This document shows, piece by piece, positions 854 to 11,648 of a stretch of 32,533 nucleotides of DNA. The translations under genes were made by a program, and so were the position numbers. Positions within the stretch are counted from its first letter, which is position 1; every line of letters starts with the position of its first letter. This DNA comes from Thermoanaerobacterales bacterium 50_218 (lineage in GTDB: Bacteria > Bacillota > DSM-12270 > Thermacetogeniales > Thermacetogeniaceae): positions 1 to 32,533 of the forward strand of contig LGFL01000013.1 in the NCBI GenBank assembly GCA_001508855.1, in the 5' to 3' direction. The notes below the pieces were generated by a model. That model saw only the letters and a list, made by a program, of their open reading frames with translations. It ran no database searches and was not told where the DNA came from.

Positions 854-1693
854 TTAGTACTTGTAAAAGCCCTGGTTCGTTTTTCTGCCTAAATATCCTG
901 CCCTAACCATCTTTCTCAACAGAGGACATGGACGATACTTGTCGTCGCCAAACTCCTTATACAGTGTTTCCATGATAGCCAAACACACATCCAGCCCTAT
1001 CAGGTCTGCCAGGGCCAAGGGTCCCATTGGGTGATTTGCACCTAATTTCATGGATTTATCAATGTCTTCAGCAGTAGCAGCGCCTTCCATTAAAAGGTAG
1101 ATAGCCTCATTGATCATGGGAATCAGTATTCTGTTCACAATAAACCCAGGCCATTCATTGACAACAACGGGACTTTTCCCGATTTTCTCCGTAATCTCTT
1201 TGACGTACGTTAAAGTATCATCAGATGTCGCTGGCGTGCGAACTATCTCGACTAATTGCATAACAGGAACAGGATTAAAGAAGTGCATCCCAACTACCTT
1301 CTCCGGACGCTGAGTAACACTTCCTAGTTCACTAACACTTAAACTCGAAGTGTTCGACGACAAGATGGTTGAAGGTTTACAAACAGAGTCAAGCTTTTTG
1401 AAAATCTCTTTTTTGAGATCAAGAACTTCAGGCACGGCCTCTATTACCAAGTCGGCGTCACTACCATCATCTAAGCTGGTAGTCCCTTTAATTTGACTGA
1501 CAATTTCTTCGATAGGAGTCGTTATTTTGCCTTTTTTTGCAAGGCGCTCAAGGTTTTTCCGAATTATATCCATACCTCGAGCGACAAACTTATCCTCGAC
1601 ATCGCAAAGAACCACGCTGTACCCAGCTTGAGCAAAAACCTGAGCAATACCCGCTCCCATAGTGCCTGCTCCTACGACCATCACCTTGTCCAT
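854..1693 (-). CDS. hbd: 3-hydroxybutyryl-CoA dehydrogenase
   Basis: This 279-residue cytosolic enzyme oxidises (S)-3-hydroxybutyryl-CoA to acetoacetyl-CoA with NAD(P)+. The Rossmann fingerprint GAGTMG is at residues 8-13. The catalytic His and Glu are seen in [17 protein letters not shown] (H137, E149), and PGFIVNR with N187 and the C-terminal [11 protein letters not shown] are family hallmarks. The length matches the short monofunctional HBDH family. It is the last pathway gene of the 4-hydroxybutyrate operon in transcription order, 116 bases downstream of crotonase. That gap contains weak inverted repeats, so expression may be adjusted there. The function is clear; cofactor preference (NADH or NADPH) is not. 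Confidence 0.95.
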
Positions 1694-1734
1694 AAGACAA
1701 ACACTCCTTTTCCTATTTCGTTTCTCTTTTCACA

Positions 1735-1784
1735 TCAGGAAAAACTTGAGAAAATGAACACTTGAACATAGAAAATGTTCCTGA
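1735..1784 (-). repeat. Nested inverted repeats in the crt-hbd gap
   Basis: An outer 7-bp pair (TCAGGAA 1735-1741 with TTCCTGA 1778-1784) surrounds an inner 6-bp hairpin (GAACAT-AGAAA-ATGTTC, 1764-1780). No U-tract follows on the minus strand, so this looks more like an intercistronic mRNA structure than a terminator. The function is unknown. Confidence 0.35.
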
Positions 1785-1809
1785 ATACCGCACTGCTTGT
1801 AAAATGCCG

Positions 1810-2592
1810 CTACTTACCTTGGAAAGAGGGCTTCCTTCTTTCTAGAAAAGCCTTCATTCCTTCCTTTTGATCTAAGCTACTAAAGCACACACCAAACAAA
1901 TTCGCTTCCAACATCAAACCACGCTCCAAATCCATTTCCATCCCATTATTAATCGCTTCTTTTGCGTACCTAAGTGCCAAAGGTGCGTTGCCAACAATGC
2001 GCTTGGCCAGTTCTTTAGCAAAACTTAGTAGTTCATCCTGTTTAACCACATGGTTTACCAAGCCAATCTGGAACGCCGTCTGGGCATCGATAATTTCTCC
2101 TGTGTAAATCAACTCCTTGGCTTTACCGGGTCCAACCAAGCGAACAAGTCGCTGAGTACCACCAAACCCTGGGATAATTCCCAAGCTGACTTCCGGCTGT
2201 CCAAACTTGGCGTTATCTGAAGCCACGCGGATATCACACACCATGGCTAATTCGCAGCCACCACCAAGGGCATAACCATTTACTGCAGCAATAGTAGGCT
2301 TTGGGAAATCTTCAATCATCTTAAAAACGCGCTGACCAAGTAATCCAAATTCTTTCCCTTCGCTTACCGTCATATTCTGCATATAGGCGATGTCGGCTCC
2401 AGCAACAAAAGCTTTATCCCCTGCACCCGTCAGGATCAGCACACGAACCCTCGAGTCAGTTGCTAAATTTTCAATTGCGTCTTCGAGTTCGTGCAGCAGC
2501 TCGGCATTCAATGCATTCAAAACCTGAGGTCGATTAATAGTAATAACAGCCAAGTTTTCTTCCTTGTCCAGCAGAATATTCTTATATGTCAC
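1810..2592 (-). CDS. crt: Crotonyl-CoA hydratase (enoyl-CoA hydratase family)
   Basis: This 260-residue crotonase-fold enzyme hydrates crotonyl-CoA to (S)-3-hydroxybutyryl-CoA. The start is GTG at 2590-2592, because AAGGAGGT (2599-2606) lies 6 bases upstream and the family N-terminus (VTYKNILLDKEENLAVITIN) begins there. A longer frame exists but would overlap the thiolase gene. With this start, the oxyanion-hole motifs AFVAGADIA and GYALGGGCELA are visible, with catalytic Glu114 and Glu134 spaced 20 residues apart as in classical crotonases. It lies 47 bases downstream of thiolase in the 4-hydroxybutyrate operon and acts on the product of the AbfD dehydratase. Confidence 0.95.
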   Translation of the reverse strand: MTYKNILLDKEENLAVITINRPQVLNALNAELLHELEDAIENLATDSRVRVLILTGAGDKAFVAGADIAYMQNMTVSEGKEFGLLGQRVFKMIEDFPKPTIAAVNGYALGGGCELAMVCDIRVASDNAKFGQPEVSLGIIPGFGGTQRLVRLVGPGKAKELIYTGEIIDAQTAFQIGLVNHVVKQDELLSFAKELAKRIVGNAPLALRYAKEAINNGMEMDLERGLMLEANLFGVCFSSLDQKEGMKAFLERRKPSFQGK

Positions 2593-2639
2593 TACTGCAC
2601 CTCCTTCGGGACAGCAAAAACTTAAAGCACCAGATTCAA

Positions 2640-3839
2640 TTAGCAACAACGTTCCACAACCATTGCAATTCCTTGACCACCTCCAATGCACAAGGTGGCC
2701 AGACCTCGGTTCGCCCCTCTCCGCTTCATTTCGTAAAGCAAAGTAACCAGGATGCGGGCTCCTGAGGCTCCGATTGGATGCCCAAGGGCTATAGCTCCTC
2801 CATTCACGTTCACTTTATCCATAACCTTGTCGAAGCCCAACTCGCGCGCTACAGCAAGTGACTGGGCAGCAAAAGCCTCATTTGCTTCGATAAGATCGAT
2901 GTCCTCAAGAGTTAAGCCAGCCAATTGAAGAGCTTTCTTGGTAGCAGGTACAGGGCCGATACCCATGATTGCCGGATCCACACCAGCAGAAGCATAACTC
3001 ACGATCCTGGCAAGCGGTTGAATCCCCAAAGCAAGCGCCTTTTTCTCCGACATCACGACCACAGCCGCGGCTCCATCATTGATTCCTGAAGCATTCCCCG
3101 CGGTAACCGTACCCTCACTTTTGAAAGCAGGAGGCAGTTTGGCCATTTTCTCAAGTGTTGTATCACGCGGATGCTCGTCAGTGTCGAAGATTACCGTCTC
3201 TTTCTTGGTTTTAATCTCTACAGGGACAATTTCTTCTTTAAACTTGCCTTCTGCGATCGCCTTTGCTGCCAGGGTTTGGCTGCGGAAGGCGAACTTGTCT
3301 TGCTCCTCACGACTAATGTTCCATCTCTCGGCTACATTTTCCGCAGTGATCCCCATATGGTAATCATTAAAAGCATCCCAGAGTCCGTCCTTGATCATCA
3401 TGTCTACCAAAACACCGTTGTTCATCCGGTACCCAAAACGAGCTTTTTCCAGCAAAAAGGGAGCAGTTGACATGCTTTCTGTGCCACCGGCCACGATGAT
3501 ATCTCCATCCCCGGCTTTAATAATCTGCGCCGCGAGGCTGACTGCACGCAACCCTGATCCACACACTTTGTTGATGGTCATACTCGGTACTTCGATGGGG
3601 AGACCAGCTTTAACTGCGGCTTGGCGGGCAACGTTCTGACCTTGACCTCCCTGCAATACACATCCGAATATTACCTCATCAACATCTTCACTCTTAATAT
3701 TGGCCCGGTTTAAAGCTTCCCTTATGACCAAAGCCGCCAAGTCTACTGCTGAAACATCCTTCAGACTGCGCCCAAAAGATCCAATCGGTGTGCGACACGC
3801 ACTTACAATAACCGCGCTACCATTGTGTTCCATAAGCAA
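2640..3839 (-). CDS. thlA: Acetyl-CoA C-acetyltransferase (thiolase)
   Basis: This 399-residue thiolase cleaves acetoacetyl-CoA with CoA to two acetyl-CoA, or condenses them in reverse. The nucleophilic Cys is in NKVCGSG (C93), with the catalytic His in ALGHPIG (H354) and the second Cys in CIGGGQG (C384). TTG at 3837-3839 is 6 bases from GGAGG and is kept as the start; an ATG two codons later (3833) is 12 bases away and is the alternative. It sits between the permease and crotonase in the operon. A 16-bp perfect inverted repeat separates it from the permease gene. Biosynthetic and degradative thiolases cannot be told apart by sequence; the context suggests degradation. Confidence 0.95.
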
Positions 3840-3878
3840 TTGCTACCTCCCATTCCAAAATTTTTGGTAGATTATCAA

Positions 3879-3919
3879 GGTAAAGAAGTAAGGAAATTTG
3901 TTCTCCTTACTTCTTTACC
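3879..3919 (-). other. 16-bp perfect inverted repeat (intercistronic hairpin)
   Basis: GGTAAAGAAGTAAGGA (3879-3894) and its exact reverse complement (3904-3919) enclose a 9-base loop between the permease stop and the thiolase ribosome site. The stem would be very stable in RNA. On the minus strand it is followed by TTGATAATC rather than a U-tract, so a canonical terminator is unlikely. It could be an RNA processing or stabilising element, a partial attenuator, or a protein-binding palindrome. Confidence 0.7.
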
Positions 3920-3950
3920 TGAGGTTGACTAAAACATTTGTTGGCTTCTG

Positions 3951-5342
3951 TTATGCAGCTTCCTCGCTTACCTGGCTAGCCCATAAGGGGCCTGCAGTGA
4001 CGTCGCCGCGGAAGAAGTTCTTACCGTAAACCACCAGACAGGCAAGGATGCCTACCGCAAACGCCCACGCCGCACCCTTTACTACGAGGACACCACCGAT
4101 TACACCCGCGAGCCCAAGATCGACCAAACTCCTTGCTTCACGTACACCCACATATACTGAGACAAAACCTTGAATTATCATTGTCAGCGACAATGCCGCG
4201 GCAAGGACCGGTTTGGTCAAAGTTACCAGGGGGGCCAGCCAATAACAGGTGAAAGTTCCGAAGCGGAAGCTTGCCACTCCGCCAATGATGGAGTCCATCT
4301 CCTTGCGTCCTTTTTTCCACCGCTCATATATAACCACCGTCATAGCCGCCCATATCGGGCCACACATCGAAATATCCGGGCCTAGGATTGACATGATAAA
4401 GTTTCTCAGACCGACAACCAGGTGGGCGCGGTCAGGATTGTAGTCGACCGGTTCGTCAGGACGGTAGGGGTCGGCATCCCGAATAATGCCCTGGCACTGA
4501 ACCGCATCTCCGAAGATTACAATATAGGTTGCAAGGACCATCGGTATCGCTTTGAGATACATATCAAACGACGGCCACCCTAATGTGCCCCAGGGAACCC
4601 AATCTCGCCACAAGACCCCAAAAGCGGGCTTTGAGAATCCCCACTGGATGTCAAACGAGGCTTCCCCTACAACCGCTGCAACAATAATCGCCATCACAAT
4701 CGCGGGAAGAATGCCCAGATTGGAAATATATCCGAGCACTTTGTTCTTCTTGGCATACTCCTGAAACCCGCGGTTGTACATCATGTACAGGGCAACGAGA
4801 GCGCACACAGAAACTGTGATCGGCATGGCTTCAAACTTGCCGCCTTGGTCAAACACCAACTTAATTGCCGCAATACCGGCACCAAGGATGACACCCGCTT
4901 TGATTGACCTAGGGATGGCGTTGATAACCTTGACCGCTAGTCCAGTGCTTCCCAGGAAGAAGCACCAAATACCAAGGAGCATCTCAAAAGCGATTAGTGC
5001 ATGCATACGTGTCGGTCCTTCGGGAAAACTACTTACGTAAGCGACAAGAAGAGGAATCGCAGGAGTTACCCACCCCGGAACAACCGGGTCACCGAGCCAT
5101 GAGTGCCAGAGGTACAGAAAACCATTCAAGATGACGATGGCAAGGGCGACCTCAAAAGGCATTCCCAAGACATCTTGCAGTACTGGAATAATTGAGAGAC
5201 AGACAGCTCCCATCAGCAGCCCTTGGATGTAATCGGGCCACTCCCAGCGGTAGTGAATCCCCGGAAAGCGGATCTTAAACTTCCACAGAGGGATATACGG
5301 GGGTTCCTGACCGTAAGGTCTTTTATTTTCCCAATTAGTCAC
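3951..5342 (-). CDS. Predicted multi-spanning permease (UraA/SulP-like), possible carboxylate importer
   Basis: This 463-residue integral membrane protein has about 12-14 hydrophobic segments. The N-terminal helix pair, the early GDPVVPGWVTPAIPLLVAY segment and the overall layout resemble the NCS2/SLC26 (UraA fold) transporters, but no family is recognised with certainty. The soluble loop in the middle (GDAVQCQGIIRDADPYRPDE) is distinctive. The GTG at 5340-5342 is chosen because AAAGGGTGG lies about 6 bases upstream. A TTG eight codons earlier (5366) has no ribosome site. It lies between the CoA-transferase and thiolase genes, and the context suggests uptake of 4-hydroxybutyrate or a related short-chain acid. 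That substrate is inference only. Confidence 0.6.
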   Translation of the reverse strand: MTNWENKRPYGQEPPYIPLWKFKIRFPGIHYRWEWPDYIQGLLMGAVCLSIIPVLQDVLGMPFEVALAIVILNGFLYLWHSWLGDPVVPGWVTPAIPLLVAYVSSFPEGPTRMHALIAFEMLLGIWCFFLGSTGLAVKVINAIPRSIKAGVILGAGIAAIKLVFDQGGKFEAMPITVSVCALVALYMMYNRGFQEYAKKNKVLGYISNLGILPAIVMAIIVAAVVGEASFDIQWGFSKPAFGVLWRDWVPWGTLGWPSFDMYLKAIPMVLATYIVIFGDAVQCQGIIRDADPYRPDEPVDYNPDRAHLVVGLRNFIMSILGPDISMCGPIWAAMTVVIYERWKKGRKEMDSIIGGVASFRFGTFTCYWLAPLVTLTKPVLAAALSLTMIIQGFVSVYVGVREARSLVDLGLAGVIGGVLVVKGAAWAFAVGILACLVVYGKNFFRGDVTAGPLWASQVSEEAA

Positions 5343-5378
5343 AATATCCCACCCTTTCTTTGCCAAATATTAACTATT

Positions 5379-6674
5379 TTAAATCCCATAAATCTCCTTA
5401 AACTCTTGCCAGATCTGGTCTCTAAACTGTGGCGCTGCTATGTTTAACAAAGCCTCTGCACGCTGCCTAATCGTTTTGCCTTTCAAATGGGCAATTCCAT
5501 ATTCTGTGACTACGTAGTCCACATCATTACGGGAAGTTGTAACTGCTTGTCCTCTGTCGAGAGCAGCAACTATCCTTGACACTTTCCCTTTAGCTGCCGT
5601 AGCTGGCATTGCAATAATGCTTCTTCCTCCCTTGGACCTCGCTGCTCCTCTCACAAAATCAACCTGTCCACCTACTCCGCTGAACTGCCTAGTACCAAGC
5701 ATATCTGCGGCTACTTGTCCCATCAGGTCTACTGCTATTGCTGAGTTGATCGAAACCATGTTGTCGTTTTGCGCAATCACGAAAGGATCATTTGTAAAGT
5801 CGACTGTATAGAATTCGACCATCGGGTTGCCATCCAGCCACTCATAAAATTTCCGAGTTCCCATGGCAAAAGTTATCACGATTTTTCCTGGTCGGAAGGT
5901 CTTCCGGCGACATGTGATTACTCCTTCTTCAACTAAATGCATTACCCCGTCAGAGATCATTTCCGAATGTATACCCAGGTCTTTTTTATCTTTTAGAAAA
6001 CTAAGTACAGCGTCTGGAATGGCTCCGATCCCTAACTGCAAGCAGTCACCATCTCGAATCAAACTGGCCACATGATTACCAATCGCTCTTTCTACTTCAG
6101 TGATTTTCGGTGGGGCAAGTTCAATTAGCGGCACTTCTACTGGAACAAAGTAGTCAATGTCAGTTACGTGGACTACTGAATCTCCCCCAGTTCGCGGCAT
6201 ATTGGGATTGACTTCGGCAATAACAGTTTTGGCGCTGAATACGGCCTGCTTAGTGTAATCAACCGAAATTCCTAAGCTGACAAAACCATGTTTGTCCGGT
6301 GGTGTTGTAGTAACCATGGCCACATCAACTGGTAGTACGCCGTCACGGAACAACCCTGGTATTTCGTGGAAAAAGACAGGAGTGTAATCTGCTCGACCTT
6401 CGTTCACAGCTTCGCGGCTGGTGCTGCCCACGAACAAGGAATTGTGGCGGAATGATGAAGCGTATTCCTTCTGGCAGTAGCGCGCTTTTCCCATTGCTAC
6501 CATGTGAACTATTTCGACATTTTCCAATTCGTCAGCTCGGTCCACAAGAGCCTCGGTAATCACCTGTGGCTCACCACATGCATGAGCCAATACAACCCGA
6601 TCTCCTGATTTGACAACTTTGACCGCTTCGTCTGCAGATACGGTCCTGGACTGGTAATACTCTTTCCAGTTCAT
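5379..6674 (-). CDS. abfT: 4-hydroxybutyrate CoA-transferase (acetyl-CoA hydrolase/transferase family)
   Basis: This 431-residue enzyme is of the Cat1/Cat2/AbfT class I CoA-transferase family. It would move CoA from acetyl-CoA to 4-hydroxybutyrate, giving 4-hydroxybutyryl-CoA and acetate. The catalytic glutamate that forms the glutamyl-CoA thioester is seen in GIHSEMISDG (E238), preceded by QLGIGAIPDAV. The C-terminal domain has GVGGQVDFVRGA, typical of the butyrate/4-hydroxybutyrate subgroup, and VVTEYGIAHLKGKT. ATG is preceded by GGAG at spacing 4. It sits 24 bases downstream of the CGGC gene and 36 before the permease. The family also uses butyrate and propionate; the 4-hydroxybutyrate assignment rests on linkage to abfD. 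Confidence 0.88.
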   Translation of the reverse strand: MNWKEYYQSRTVSADEAVKVVKSGDRVVLAHACGEPQVITEALVDRADELENVEIVHMVAMGKARYCQKEYASSFRHNSLFVGSTSREAVNEGRADYTPVFFHEIPGLFRDGVLPVDVAMVTTTPPDKHGFVSLGISVDYTKQAVFSAKTVIAEVNPNMPRTGGDSVVHVTDIDYFVPVEVPLIELAPPKITEVERAIGNHVASLIRDGDCLQLGIGAIPDAVLSFLKDKKDLGIHSEMISDGVMHLVEEGVITCRRKTFRPGKIVITFAMGTRKFYEWLDGNPMVEFYTVDFTNDPFVIAQNDNMVSINSAIAVDLMGQVAADMLGTRQFSGVGGQVDFVRGAARSKGGRSIIAMPATAAKGKVSRIVAALDRGQAVTTSRNDVDYVVTEYGIAHLKGKTIRQRAEALLNIAAPQFRDQIWQEFKEIYGI

Positions 6675-6698
6675 CTCTCTCCGCGACTCCTCTCCTCT

Positions 6699-7022
6699 TT
6701 ACTTGGTTGCTTTCTCCCTAGCTGACTTAATTAATTGCCCAAGCATAACTGGAATTTCAGACTGGGGGACCTCCAAATAATCCAGCAAACCGGCACTTAC
6801 AACATGCCAATTCTCAGTACCCTTTCTCACCTCCGTTCTGTCCGCACAACAAGCAGGACAACCGCAGATAATCAAGCCAACGTCAAAAGTTCCTTCCTCC
6901 TCATACACAACTTCTATGTCTTCCTGAAGCTCTTGATTTAAGTAAGATAAAAGGTCACGCAGGAACTTGGTGCGATCATATCCACAATTACAGCCACCAC
7001 AGTACTTAACTCGAATCTTCAT
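6699..7022 (-). CDS. Small cysteine-rich CGGC protein, function unknown
   Basis: This 107-residue soluble protein has two cysteine clusters: KYCGGCNCGYDR at residues 6-17 (three Cys) and CGCPACCADR from residue 53 (four Cys). Between them is a predicted alpha/beta segment with an acidic stretch (EDIEVVYEEEGTFD). The pattern suggests a metal or Fe-S site, or a redox dithiol, but I do not recognise a characterised family. The ATG overlaps the stop of the NifU-like gene (ATGA at 7019-7022), so translation is coupled. Its place between an Fe-S scaffold protein and the CoA-transferase in an operon headed by an Fe-S dehydratase suggests a part in maturing or protecting AbfD. That is inference from context. 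Confidence 0.75.
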   Translation of the reverse strand: MKIRVKYCGGCNCGYDRTKFLRDLLSYLNQELQEDIEVVYEEEGTFDVGLIICGCPACCADRTEVRKGTENWHVVSAGLLDYLEVPQSEIPVMLGQLIKSAREKATK

Positions 7023-7318
7023 CGCTCAAGCAGTCCTCCTGTTCCTCCCTTTAGAATGTCAACTACAGTATCCAGAAGCTCACGAGAAATCGTGTTGTTC
7101 ACCACAACATTTCTGATGCCTGGCACTTTCTCTTTCAACGTTTCAGCTACAATTGTTTCCAGCGTGACCTGAGAAGCCGGGCACCCACTGCAGGCACCAG
7201 TAAGTTCTACAATTACGTCTTTTTCTGGGGTAACTTCTACTACTTCGAGACCACCACCGTGGCTGCGCAGGTACGGGAGAACCTCTTTTTCTAAAACCTC
7301 TTTAACCTTGTCCAGCAC
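7019..7318 (-). CDS. nfu: NifU-like C-terminal domain Fe-S scaffold protein
   Basis: This 99-residue stand-alone Nfu domain binds a [4Fe-4S] cluster through the CxxC motif seen in LTGACSGCPASQVTLETIV. The chosen start is GTG (7316-7318), since GGGGGAG lies about 7 bases upstream and the family N-terminus (MLDKVKEVLEKEVLPYLRSHGGG) begins there. A TTG nine codons earlier is possible but lacks a ribosome site. It lies directly downstream of abfD (33 bases) and overlaps the CGGC gene by 4 bases. Family knowledge: Nfu proteins deliver clusters to target enzymes. Since AbfD carries a catalytic [4Fe-4S] cluster, a dedicated cluster supplier is a reasonable reading. Confidence 0.88.
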   Translation of the reverse strand: MLDKVKEVLEKEVLPYLRSHGGGLEVVEVTPEKDVIVELTGACSGCPASQVTLETIVAETLKEKVPGIRNVVVNNTISRELLDTVVDILKGGTGGLLER

Positions 7319-7351
7319 TCGGTTTCTCCCCCGTCCAGGTGTCAAAGCAAT

Positions 7352-8821
7352 TTACCTTCCAGGCAGCAGATCATCGGGATCGATGCCACAGAGGCGGCGA
7401 GCAAGAGCTTTTTTGGCCTCCAGGTTGGCCAACCTCTGGATCATAATGCGCTGCGCCTGCGGAGAACCAGCCCCATGCAATGATTCCGTCAGATATCCCA
7501 CTGCTACAGCGCCGAGGGTCATTGCTTCAATGAGGCGCAGCATACGCTGCCTGTGTTCAGTCGGATACTTCGCATCCCCCTGCATTAGTTTTTTGCACCA
7601 CTCGCCAATCTCGGGTGAATTGAAGTCAGCATCAGAAGGCATGGTAACCAACAGACCACCAGCAATATCCTGAGCCAATCTAGCAATCTCATAGGGGAAT
7701 CTGGTAACATTCTGCTTGCAGACATTGGCCAGCATAATGTCGATCAGGTAGTTGCCAGCCGCAGTTTTCCTTCCTTCTGCAGAACAAGCAATACCACAGG
7801 AGTACAGAGTTTCGTTCAAATGAATCATCTCGGTCAGTTTATCCCTGACGTGGGAAGCTTTTGCTACTCCGTTGTATTCGGCAATAGCTGCAGTAGCCCC
7901 AATCAAAACATCACCATTTCCTACCTTGCACCCACCGTAGGACTGCCTGTGGTAACCTGCAAACCGCTCAACCAACATACCAGCAAACTCAGTTTCTCCG
8001 CACATAAAAACACGGTCCCAGGGCACGAAAGTATTGTTAAAAATCACAATGGCTTCCTGACCACCGTAGTTGATATTCCCAACATCCACCTTGCTGTCTT
8101 CTAACTTGCGGGTATCGCAGGACTGGCGCCCGTAGATATAAATAAGACTAGGATCATCAGCTGGAACTGCAAAGCACACCGCGTAGTCCTTGTCCTCGGG
8201 CTTCATCGAAATGGTAGGCATCACTAGGATCTCATGCGAGTTGAGTATGCCTGTCTGGTGCATTTTGGCACCACGAACAACGATGCCATCTTCTCTTTTC
8301 TCAACTACCCGTACGTACAAATCAGGATCAGCCTGGGCAGAAGGGCCGAGCGCTCGATTACCTTTAGGGTCTGTCATCGCTCCATCAACTGTCCAGTCTT
8401 TCTCTTCCCACTCCAGCACATATTTTTTAAACCTTTCGTGGTAGTTGGTCCCATACTTCTTGTCGATTTCGTAGGTTGTGCTCCAAACCGCATTCAGTGC
8501 ATCAAGACCCACACAGCGCTGAAAGCATGCCCCGGTCATCTGTCCAACCAAACGCAGCATTTTGACCTTCTTGATCAGATCTTCTGTGCTTTGGTGTAAG
8601 TGGGTAAAACGATTAATTTTGCGTCCCGTCAAAGCAGAAGTTGCAGTCATTATATCTTCGTACTCGGGAAGTTCTGCCAGTTTGTAGGTCATAGCACAGC
8701 AGTTGATTGATGGACGGATCATCGGGTGGTCTACGGGGTTTTCCACTTTTTCCCCCATCAGGTAGATATTGCGGGGTCTCAATTCACGCAGACTTTGGAT
8801 ATACTCTTCTGCTGTCATCAT
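7352..8821 (-). CDS. abfD: 4-hydroxybutyryl-CoA dehydratase / vinylacetyl-CoA delta-isomerase
   Basis: This 489-residue flavin and [4Fe-4S] enzyme dehydrates 4-hydroxybutyryl-CoA to crotonyl-CoA by a ketyl-radical mechanism and also isomerises vinylacetyl-CoA. The cluster ligands known from the Clostridium aminobutyricum enzyme can be read: C99 and C103 in GACFQRC, and H291 and C298 in GYHRQSYGGC, with the same His-x6-Cys spacing. The substrate and flavin-site region AKMHQTGILNSHEILVMPT is conserved. Two consecutive ATGs (8821 and 8818) follow GGAGG. It is the first gene of the operon, about 57 bases from a sigma-54 promoter. Related 4-hydroxyphenylacetate hydroxylases lack these ligands, so the assignment is firm. 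Confidence 0.95.
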   Translation of the reverse strand: MMTAEEYIQSLRELRPRNIYLMGEKVENPVDHPMIRPSINCCAMTYKLAELPEYEDIMTATSALTGRKINRFTHLHQSTEDLIKKVKMLRLVGQMTGACFQRCVGLDALNAVWSTTYEIDKKYGTNYHERFKKYVLEWEEKDWTVDGAMTDPKGNRALGPSAQADPDLYVRVVEKREDGIVVRGAKMHQTGILNSHEILVMPTISMKPEDKDYAVCFAVPADDPSLIYIYGRQSCDTRKLEDSKVDVGNINYGGQEAIVIFNNTFVPWDRVFMCGETEFAGMLVERFAGYHRQSYGGCKVGNGDVLIGATAAIAEYNGVAKASHVRDKLTEMIHLNETLYSCGIACSAEGRKTAAGNYLIDIMLANVCKQNVTRFPYEIARLAQDIAGGLLVTMPSDADFNSPEIGEWCKKLMQGDAKYPTEHRQRMLRLIEAMTLGAVAVGYLTESLHGAGSPQAQRIMIQRLANLEAKKALARRLCGIDPDDLLPGR

Positions 8822-8877
8822 TTGAACATCGCCTCCACAGACATCTCTTGGTTAAACTTTTCACTTGTTTTCTTCTA

Positions 8878-8892
8878 GCAACTTCCGTGCCA
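8878..8892 (-). promoter_or_regulatory. Sigma-54 promoter of the 4-hydroxybutyrate operon
   Basis: The minus-strand sequence TGGCACGGAAGTTGC matches the sigma-54 consensus TGGCACG-N4-TTGC without mismatch, with the obligatory GG and GC exactly ten bases apart. The expected transcription start is near 8866, leaving a leader of about 45 bases before the abfD ATG. A sigma-54 activator gene is divergently encoded, which supports a true promoter. Confidence 0.9.
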
Positions 8893-9038
8893 TTTCTAAA
8901 TCTCAAGAAATGCTGCTATCACTTCTCCGGCTTTTCAATTTTGCCTGTTATTTCGGAGTTTTCTGGCTCAAAAATTTTCTGTGTTTGGCATGAAGATTGG
9001 GCAAACGTATCAAAGGCAAATGCACTTGGGCATTACTG

Positions 9039-9052
9039 ATGCATTTCTGCAT
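9039..9052. promoter_or_regulatory. Palindrome ATGCA-N4-TGCAT, upstream copy A
   Basis: The sequence ATGCATTTCTGCAT is a perfect dyad with a 4-base spacer, about 160 bases upstream of the sigma-54 -12 element. It is a candidate upstream activator site for the Fis-type domain of the divergently encoded regulator. No binding evidence exists beyond position, symmetry and duplication. Confidence 0.55.
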
Positions 9053-9131
9053 GCAGAGCTGGCCCATTGTCACCAGCTACATGTGCAAGTTTTCGCTAAT
9101 ACACCCTGGCAAATGCGCAAATGCATCGTTA

Positions 9132-9145
9132 ATGCATTCCTGCAT
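9132..9145. promoter_or_regulatory. Palindrome ATGCA-N4-TGCAT, upstream copy B
   Basis: The sequence ATGCATTCCTGCAT repeats the dyad of copy A exactly 93 bases away, with only one spacer base changed. A further ATGCAT lies at 9121-9126. Conservation of both arms while flanking bases diverge is what a protein-binding site would show. Confidence 0.55.
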
Positions 9146-9173
9146 ACCAGGTTGGACCATTGGCGCCAGCTAC

Positions 9174-9533
9174 TGACTGCCTTTGCAACCGTTAGAATTA
9201 ATACCAAAGTGTTTCTTAGTCAATAGGAAACAGGGAGCATATCTCTGCCCCTCACTAGGCCTTCAAAAGAGGAGACTGGCATGGTATTTGAAAAAGTACA
9301 AAACGGGAAGCAATAAGAAATGGGGGAATTTCAGCAAGGAAAAAAGGTAATAGTTTGAGGCTGAGTAGCAGAAAACAAAAGAGGGAATCATTTTTTATAC
9401 CAAGCGAGGAAAGGAAGTTGAAGGCGATCCTAACGAAAATAAAGGATTTCCTCATCATTACAGAGAAGGTTATAAGTGTAGTTTCCCGGGGGCCACACTT
9501 GCACTAAAAATCGAGAACAAGGAGCTGAAAAAG
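9174..9533. other. Leader region of the activator gene, no gene seen
   Basis: This A- and purine-rich stretch separates the tandem repeats from the activator start. A half-match to a plus-strand sigma-54 promoter (TGGCATG-GTAT-TTGA, 9277-9291) has GA in place of the essential GC. No convincing sigma-A promoter was found. An open frame on the minus strand (9255-9458) encodes a low-complexity hydrophobic peptide without a ribosome site and is not called. Confidence 0.4.
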
Positions 9534-11648
9534 ATGCGGGTCAGAGACGTGATGACAAAGAACAACGTATACGCCTCTATTCACGATACCCTCGACAAGG
9601 TAGCGAAAATTTTTCATGACCACCAAGTTGATTGTGTGCCGGTTTTAGATGATGAAGGAAAACTGCAGGGAGTTATAGACAAAAACCACTTCATAAAGGC
9701 AATAACCACCTGTAGACATCTTTCCACCCCTATCTCCGATGTTATGGCCAGGAATATGCCTGCCGTAACCCCAGATGACGATCTGACACAAGTGAGTAAA
9801 ATCAAATTCGAATCTGAATGCATCCCAGTTCTTGAGAAGGGAAAAGTTGTCGGTATTCTCAAAAGAACAGACCTTATAAACGCCATCAGTAAAAATAAAA
9901 ACGGACAATATACGAGGGCTCTGCTAGATTCTCTCCTCAACCCAATCATAGCTATCGATACTGAAGAAATTGTCAGAGCATGCAATATGGCTGCTGCGCG
10001 CTTATTTGGAAAGGAACCATGCGAAATTATAGGCATGCCGCTAAAATCCATACTAAAAGAATCCGGGCTACCCAACGTTTTATCAGCCGGCAGACCAGAA
10101 CCAGGTCAGAAGATTACGATCGGCAATCGAACCTTCGTTTCGAACAGGACTCCCATTTATGTCGACGGCAAAATCGTTGGTGCGGTGGCTGTGTTGCAGG
10201 ACATATCAGAACTTGAGGCCATATCGAAGGAACTATCCTATACAAAGGAACTCTCCAGAGAGCTGGATGCTATTATCGAGTCTTCTTTTGATGGCATTTT
10301 TGTTACTGATGGTTCGGGAAAGGTTTTGAAAGTCAACCAAGCCTACGAAAGGATCACCGGGATCAAAAAGGAAGAGGTTCTGGGAAGAACTATGCAGGAA
10401 TTAGTGGAACAGGGGTTTTACGACAGATCAGTTACTCTAGAGGTGCTCAAAACTGGTAAAGCGCAAACCATAGTTCAAGAAGTCAAAACCGGGAAAACTA
10501 TTCTAGTTACAGGAAACCCAATTTATGACACAAACGGAAACATATTTCGGGTGGTCACCAATGTCCGCGATATTACAGAACTTAATCGGCTACAGCAGGA
10601 AGTCAAAAGAATGCAGGAATTACAACAACATTACGAAGAAGTGATCAACAAACTTCGTTTGCAAGTAGCACATGGTGAAACCGTAGTAGTAAAATCTAAA
10701 AAAATGAACGAAGTTATGGAACTGGCTGCTCGCCTGGCGCAGGTAGACTCGACCGTCCTCATTTATGGAGAATCCGGGGTGGGCAAGGAACTAATCGCTA
10801 ATTTTATTCATGAAAACAGTCCGCGGAAAAAAGCTCCCTTCATAAAAATTAACTGTGCGGCCATTCCGGAAAACTTGCTGGAATCGGAATTGTTCGGCTA
10901 CGAAGAAGGGGCCTTCACAGGGGCCAGAAAAGGAGGAAAAATAGGGGTCTTTGAAATTGCCAACAAAGGCACGCTTTTCCTGGACGAAATTGGTGAACTT
11001 CCCCTGAGCTTACAAGCGAAGCTCCTCCGGGTTCTCCAGGAAAAAGAAATTACGAAGGTAGGAGGAGTAAAACCCATAAAGATCGATGTAAGAATAATCG
11101 CGGCCACCAACCGCAATCTCCACGAGATGGTCGAACAAAACCAGTTTCGAAGAGATCTTTTTTACCGCCTCAACGTGCTCTCGATTTATGTTCCGCCGCT
11201 GCGGGAAAGGCGAGAAGATATTCCCCCATTAGCGTTCCACTTCCTTGAAAAAGTAAACAAGGAATACGGGTTTAATAAGAGACTCGACCCTCAAGTTATC
11301 AAGCTTTTAGTACAATACGACTGGCCCGGTAATGTAAGAGAACTTTCCAATGCAATTGAACGATTAGTTGTAATGTCATCGGGCGAGGTTATCACGTATG
11401 AAGACGCGAAAACCTATCTATTCAACTGGAAGGCAAATAATGGCAGAGAATTAGAACATTATAGATGGCAACCTCTGAAAAAAGCTGTTGAGGAATTCGA
11501 AAAAAGTTTACTTACTCAAGCATTCGAAACATTTAAGACCACGTACAAAGTTGCAGAAGTGCTTGGAGTCAACCAGTCTACTATTGTTCGGAAGGCAATG
11601 CGCTACGGAATACCAATAGGAAAACAAACCAGTAGGAAAACGAAATAG
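9534..11648 (+). CDS. Sigma-54-dependent transcriptional activator (CBS-CBS-PAS-PAS-AAA+-Fis)
   Basis: This 704-residue regulator belongs to the NtrC/RocR-type enhancer-binding proteins. Domains in order: a CBS pair (about 1-118), PAS (about 125-225), PAS (about 240-350), a coiled-coil linker (350-385), an AAA+ module (388-620) and a Fis-type helix-turn-helix (about 660-697). Walker A GESGVGKE (412-419), the sigma-54 contact motif GAFTGA (459-464), Walker B GTLFLDE (479-485) and arginine-finger region RRDLFYR (539-545) are all intact, so it should remodel sigma-54 polymerase. The start ATG follows AAGGAG at spacing 9. It is divergent from abfD, whose promoter is sigma-54 type, so activation of the 4-hydroxybutyrate operon is likely. 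CBS pairs often bind adenine nucleotides and PAS domains bind small ligands; the inducer is unknown. Confidence 0.93.
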   Translation: MRVRDVMTKNNVYASIHDTLDKVAKIFHDHQVDCVPVLDDEGKLQGVIDKNHFIKAITTCRHLSTPISDVMARNMPAVTPDDDLTQVSKIKFESECIPVLEKGKVVGILKRTDLINAISKNKNGQYTRALLDSLLNPIIAIDTEEIVRACNMAAARLFGKEPCEIIGMPLKSILKESGLPNVLSAGRPEPGQKITIGNRTFVSNRTPIYVDGKIVGAVAVLQDISELEAISKELSYTKELSRELDAIIESSFDGIFVTDGSGKVLKVNQAYERITGIKKEEVLGRTMQELVEQGFYDRSVTLEVLKTGKAQTIVQEVKTGKTILVTGNPIYDTNGNIFRVVTNVRDITELNRLQQEVKRMQELQQHYEEVINKLRLQVAHGETVVVKSKKMNEVMELAARLAQVDSTVLIYGESGVGKELIANFIHENSPRKKAPFIKINCAAIPENLLESELFGYEEGAFTGARKGGKIGVFEIANKGTLFLDEIGELPLSLQAKLLRVLQEKEITKVGGVKPIKIDVRIIAATNRNLHEMVEQNQFRRDLFYRLNVLSIYVPPLRERREDIPPLAFHFLEKVNKEYGFNKRLDPQVIKLLVQYDWPGNVRELSNAIERLVVMSSGEVITYEDAKTYLFNWKANNGRELEHYRWQPLKKAVEEFEKSLLTQAFETFKTTYKVAEVLGVNQSTIVRKAMRYGIPIGKQTSRKTK

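Follow-up and report, generated by a model that had tools for sequence, protein, structure and literature searches.

Organization of the locus

The window, i.e., the whole stretch of 32,533 nucleotides analysed here, carries an operon whose role is 4-hydroxybutyrate fermentation and, divergent from it, the gene of a sigma-54 activator. The operon lies on the minus strand and comprises the genes for an abfD-like 4-hydroxybutyryl-CoA dehydratase of the HpaB family (7352–8821; assigned with Pfam and 87% identical to that of Thermosyntropha lipolytica), a NifU-like protein (7019–7345; Pfam), a conserved hypothetical protein that holds an equal place in orthologous operons (6699–7022), a CoA-transferase of the acetyl-CoA hydrolase/transferase family (5379–6674; Pfam) and a permease that matches Xan_ur_permease of Pfam weakly and is conserved in the operon (3951–5366). 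The activator (9534–11648, plus strand; 704 aa) has the Pfam domain order CBS-CBS-PAS-PAS-AAA+(sigma-54)-HTH_50, and its recognition helix, NQSTIVRK (residues 680–687; 11571–11594, plus strand), was assigned from the sequence and from the agreement of helix class with operator arms described below. The 712-bp region between the two divergent genes houses the repeat that is the subject of this analysis.

A consensus scan of the whole window at up to one mismatch returned TGGCACGGAAGTTGCT (TGGCAC-N5-TTGCT; 8877–8892, minus strand) as the sole match to a sigma-54 promoter, a count that alone is not above chance, and we assign it to the abfD operon. Where an activator accompanies abfD in orthologous loci, a promoter of this type lies ahead of abfD in most cases, and the host genome has a sigma-54 gene. 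The nearest dyad of the repeat lies about 128 bp upstream of this promoter, within the 100–250 bp at which most Clostridiales enhancers are found according to Nie 2019 (PMC6615313), where most predicted regulons have several sites.

A duplicated pair of dyads

A repeat search followed by a shuffle test identified two 66-bp copies of a putative enhancer unit, one proximal to the promoter (9015–9080) and one distal (9108–9173), with a period of 93 bp and 48 of 66 positions identical. When the intergenic region was shuffled 1000 times (first order) and the best 66-mer self-match scored each time, no score exceeded 37/66 (mean 33.1, sd 1.3), which excludes chance as the source of the repeat. Each copy contains two dyads 19 bp apart, four in all: ATGCACTTGGGCAT (dyad 1, 9020–9033), which is the weakest, and ATGCATTTCTGCAT (dyad 2, 9039–9052) in the proximal copy, and ATGCGCAAATGCAT (dyad 3, 9113–9126) and ATGCATTCCTGCAT (dyad 4, 9132–9145) in the distal copy. 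Dyads 2 and 4 are perfect ATGCA-N4-TGCAT, a sequence that occurs three times in the 1.77-Mb genome, whereas dyads 1 and 3 carry one mismatch each. The tandem copies with their 93-bp period, the two perfect dyads and an ATGCAT at 9121 had already been reported in a preliminary description of this DNA, and all of them lie where it placed them; its count of one dyad per copy holds for the perfect dyads, which are real, but overlooked the second dyad 19 bp away in each.

The composite ATGC-N6-GCAT-N5-ATGC-N6-GCAT is matched exactly in both copies, and a genome scan that allowed up to three mismatches gave no further occurrence. The copies are identical at 22 of 28 positions within the dyads and at 26 of 38 outside them, and the identity outside the dyads indicates a true segmental duplication rather than two convergent sites. 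The outer triplets of the window's dyads are AAT or GAT on one side and ATG, ATT, ATC or ATA on the other, and the outermost G/C of the consensus in relatives is kept in some of them only. Repeated dyads upstream of a −24/−12 promoter, an adjoining AAA+ activator with an HTH domain and sigma-54 in the genome are among the features of a sigma-54 enhancer (UAS) array, and these are found here.

The proximal copy also contains an inverted repeat, AGCTGG-N10-CCAGCT (9057–9078), which could be a second site or may be due to chance; in the distal copy it has decayed to GGTTGG-N10-CCAGCT (about 9150–9171). The third perfect ATGCA-N4-TGCAT of the genome (L216 1539–1552; C11:23238) lies close to the end of a contig; the only sigma-54-like match in its vicinity, some 320 bp off, is a poor one. 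A genome-wide screen of the other one-mismatch dyads for nearby sigma-54 promoters gave two poor candidates only, and for this reason we claim no further member of the regulon.

Dyads in orthologous abfD loci

Loci in which an orthologous abfD operon adjoins an activator were gathered from two collections of genomes. A genome scan queried with the activator itself gave no match; alignment with abfD did find loci. The nearest, in T. lipolytica (abfD 87% and activator 57% identical), has three GATG-N8-CATC dyads, two at a pitch of 19 bp and the third 66 bp further on. Genomes G053 and G163 have a pair at a 20-bp pitch, the first members of which are degenerate, and a third dyad about 80 bp on. 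The arrays of T. lipolytica, G053 and a further genome, G117 (pitches of 20 then 79), share the same layout, and all three accompany activators with NQST-type helices. Overall, the orthologous operons next to activators of this type have GATG-N8-CATC dyads with a pair pitch of 19–20 bp and a second cluster 66–80 bp on, and their intergenic regions keep the dyads while the remainder of the 66-bp unit is absent. The preliminary description had proposed that orthologous loci which keep regulator and promoter but lack the dyad would count against its enhancer; when this was put to the test, these GATG-N8-CATC dyads were what the loci showed. Applied to the window, a weight matrix based solely on the seven sites of T. 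lipolytica, G053 and G163 places dyads 2, 3, 4 and 1 at ranks 1, 2, 6 and 27, respectively, of 32,518 positions.

Across the wider collection, 36 loci have an activator near abfD; upstream of abfD, 14 of them carry TGCA-N4-TGCA, at 20 sites in total against 0.6 expected, and spacers of 2, 3, 5, 6, 7 and 8 are not represented there. By comparison, the N4 form occurs in 1 of 34 abfD loci that lack both an activator and a sigma-54 promoter (Fisher p = 0.00026, the window not counted), a p-value that implies more independence than the loci have, since the genomes are related and a few entered through both collections. Over half of the loci that adjoin an activator lack the exact form in the stretch scanned, and some of these have no recognisable dyad of any class. 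A count of palindromes over spacers 0–12 is not specific for N4; other hairpins dominate that count, and the comparison was therefore made on TGCA-N4-TGCA instead. Upstream of nifU-abfD in Clostridium ihumii (L162 3432–3629) there are three TGCA dyads, of which the first and second have a 19-bp pitch; the stretch covered contains no activator gene.

The positions of these arrays bear on the possibility that the dyads bind the same activator but mainly serve to autoregulate its own gene rather than the abfD operon. The two genes share the intergenic region, G053 has a further, similar pair-plus-single array upstream of its activator (L037), which may serve autoregulation or another target, and some GTTGCA sites (see below) lie upstream of activator genes. 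However, the sole recognisable sigma-54 promoter of the window points to abfD, and the arrays of T. lipolytica, G053, G163 and G046 sit between the 3′ end of the activator gene and abfD, a position for which control of abfD is the simplest reading. We consider predominant autoregulation unlikely and favour control of the abfD operon.

Recognition helix and dyad arms

The loci yielded 98 activator genes, of which 49 have both a classifiable helix and recognisable sites, and in 48 of these 49 the helix class agrees with the dyad arm, with the reservation that some of the data were already known when the classes were defined. NQST/SQPT helices accompany GAT arms in 13 cases, DAST-like helices GTT arms in 31 and RTT helices TGT arms in 4, whereas shuffling predicts 0 to 0.4 sites per helix/arm cell; the sole off-diagonal activator is NQST-like with TGT. 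The well-supported branches of an AAA+-region tree are compatible with a single origin of each helix-arm pairing, and a test of independent pairs on the activator tree is underpowered; the phylogenetic independence of the match is weak. Within one family, f16, which includes Thermosyntropha, many CBS-PAS activators with DAST helices have GTTGCA-N4-TGCAAC-like sites near their genes (L040, L065, L066, L083, L084 and others).

The most telling genome is G117, which is a natural swap (L128 and L129 4647–4761). Here an abfD 88% identical to that of the window adjoins an HRTT activator and has a TGTGCA-N4-TGCACA dyad. At another locus G117 encodes an NQST activator with 51% identity to that of the window, and GATGC dyads arranged as a pair plus a single follow it, with no recognised sigma-54 promoter beside them. 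Here too the arms go with the activator and not with the target gene.

This pattern also speaks to the idea that some other transcription factor, with no relation to the neighbouring activator, binds the dyads. The link between activator and dyads is a predicted one, and the AGCTGG-N10-CCAGCT repeat within the unit could belong to a second factor; still, the dyad arms track the recognition helix of the neighbouring activator rather than the target gene, the swap in G117 included, and we regard this reading as very unlikely beside binding by the neighbouring activator.

We lean, by a modest degree, towards a specificity code in which activators of this family share a TGCA-like N4 dyad, residues of the recognition helix set the outer triplet (NQST/SQPT for GAT, DAST for GTT and RTT for TGT) and the pair-plus-single layout forms a conserved platform for the hexamer. 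If true, the enhancer of an uncharacterised activator in the family could be deduced from the sequence of that activator. Several different sigma-54 activators control AbfD-type operons in anaerobes, and most of their operators are unmapped; a site, a layout and a helix-to-arm rule would make the regulons of uncharacterised activators predictable and testable.

Proposed mechanism of activation

Taking these observations together, the repeat is very probably the enhancer (UAS) of the sigma-54-dependent abfD operon, bound by the divergent CBS-PAS activator. The preliminary description had proposed a tandem enhancer for this activator, and the orthologous loci, the matrix built outside the window and the match of helix to arms all argue in its favour. 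Its alternative, that the repeat is a decayed coding duplication, draws on a period of 31 codons and on an 81-aa frame (8981–9226) that is open across both copies, but is scarcely credible given that the 18 differences are split evenly (7/6/5) over the codon positions, that the dyads are better conserved than the rest and that orthologous intergenic regions hold dyads without the remaining unit.

Activators of the sigma-54 type bind dyads as dimers, several dimers form a hexamer, and looping of the DNA brings the hexamer into contact with the polymerase; NorR of E. coli provides a precedent for three sites. The array that recurs in the orthologous loci offers three dimer sites, which fits the assembly of a hexamer from several dimers. 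Computation gives the dyads and their spacing, and shows that they recur next to activators of this kind and that their arms agree with the helix; from this we infer binding, hexamer seeding, looping and activation as follows. Dimers of the activator would bind 16-bp dyads (GATGYA-N4-TRCATC in relatives, NATGCA-N4-TGCATN in the window) through the NQSTIVRK helix. The 19-bp dyad pair, together with another cluster some 75 bp closer to the promoter, would gather at least three dimers and so favour formation of the AAA+ hexamer, and looping would then let the hexamer remodel RNA polymerase-sigma-54 at 8877–8892. The window has one dyad more than usual, the pair having been duplicated together with its flanks, and the 93-bp segmental duplication would have turned the usual pair-plus-single layout into a pair-plus-pair. 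It clearly exemplifies an enhancer array that has grown by duplicating an entire pair of dyads.

Origin of the operon

In the searched genomes of the window's own family, no relatives of the activator or the operon were found at the cut-offs used, and abfD is 87–88% identical to genes from other families, whereas SecA and CtpB on the same contig find their best matches within the window's own family (85% and 70%, respectively). The operon and its activator (854–11648) were therefore probably acquired horizontally and together. A mis-binned contig was considered as well and rejected on the matches of SecA and CtpB.

Comparison with known systems

The best NCBIfam match of the window's activator is PrdR, the activator of proline reductase (NF041552), at 549.6 bits, a score below the family cut-off of 795; PrdR has a different target and a published motif of TGT-N10..12-ACA. 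Enhancers of the TGT-N10-ACA type (NifA, FhlA, PrdR and others) have a 16-bp geometry in common with the window, with outer triplets 10 bp apart, and the TGTGCA-N4-TGCACA sites beside RTT-type activators fit this pattern exactly, whereas the outer triplets of the window are NAT/ATN (GAT/ATC in relatives). The enhancer of AtoC in E. coli, which is likewise a sigma-54 activator of an operon of CoA metabolism, has two TGCA dyads at a 19-bp pitch (counted by hand) between atoC and atoDAEB; its spacer is N6 rather than N4, and AtoC belongs to the response regulators and differs in its recognition helix.

The closest parallel is the XanR regulon of Clostridium. In Nie 2019, control of abfD-nifU-hyp-ach-golB by XanR through sigma-54 is predicted and the XanR group is given a "distinct" enhancer motif of its own (PMC6615313), and a 2025 survey places the AbfD COG among those regulated by sigma-54 in Clostridia (PMC12316311). 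The XanR regulon has in common with the window an operon of abfD, nifU, a hypothetical gene, a CoA-transferase and a permease under sigma-54, as well as an adjacent activator; from its position, we take the window's permease to correspond to golB. The activators beside the operon in Clostridium are about 47–51% identical to the window's over PAS2-AAA-HTH, and the sites found at the Clostridium loci examined are GTTGCA-N4-TGCAAY. Sigma-54 control of the abfD operon is thus a kind of regulation already known, and the suggestion in the preliminary description that the operator is undescribed was too strong in view of the motif predicted for the XanR group. The docking sequence, its layout and its tracking of the DNA-reading helix of the activator do not appear to have been described in detail. 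The ATGCA form beside a CBS-PAS activator may still be new, since the Clostridium activator at L153 is a PAS-AAA-HTH protein with a DAST-type helix and without the CBS domains of the window's activator, and the Clostridium arms differ (GTTGCA).
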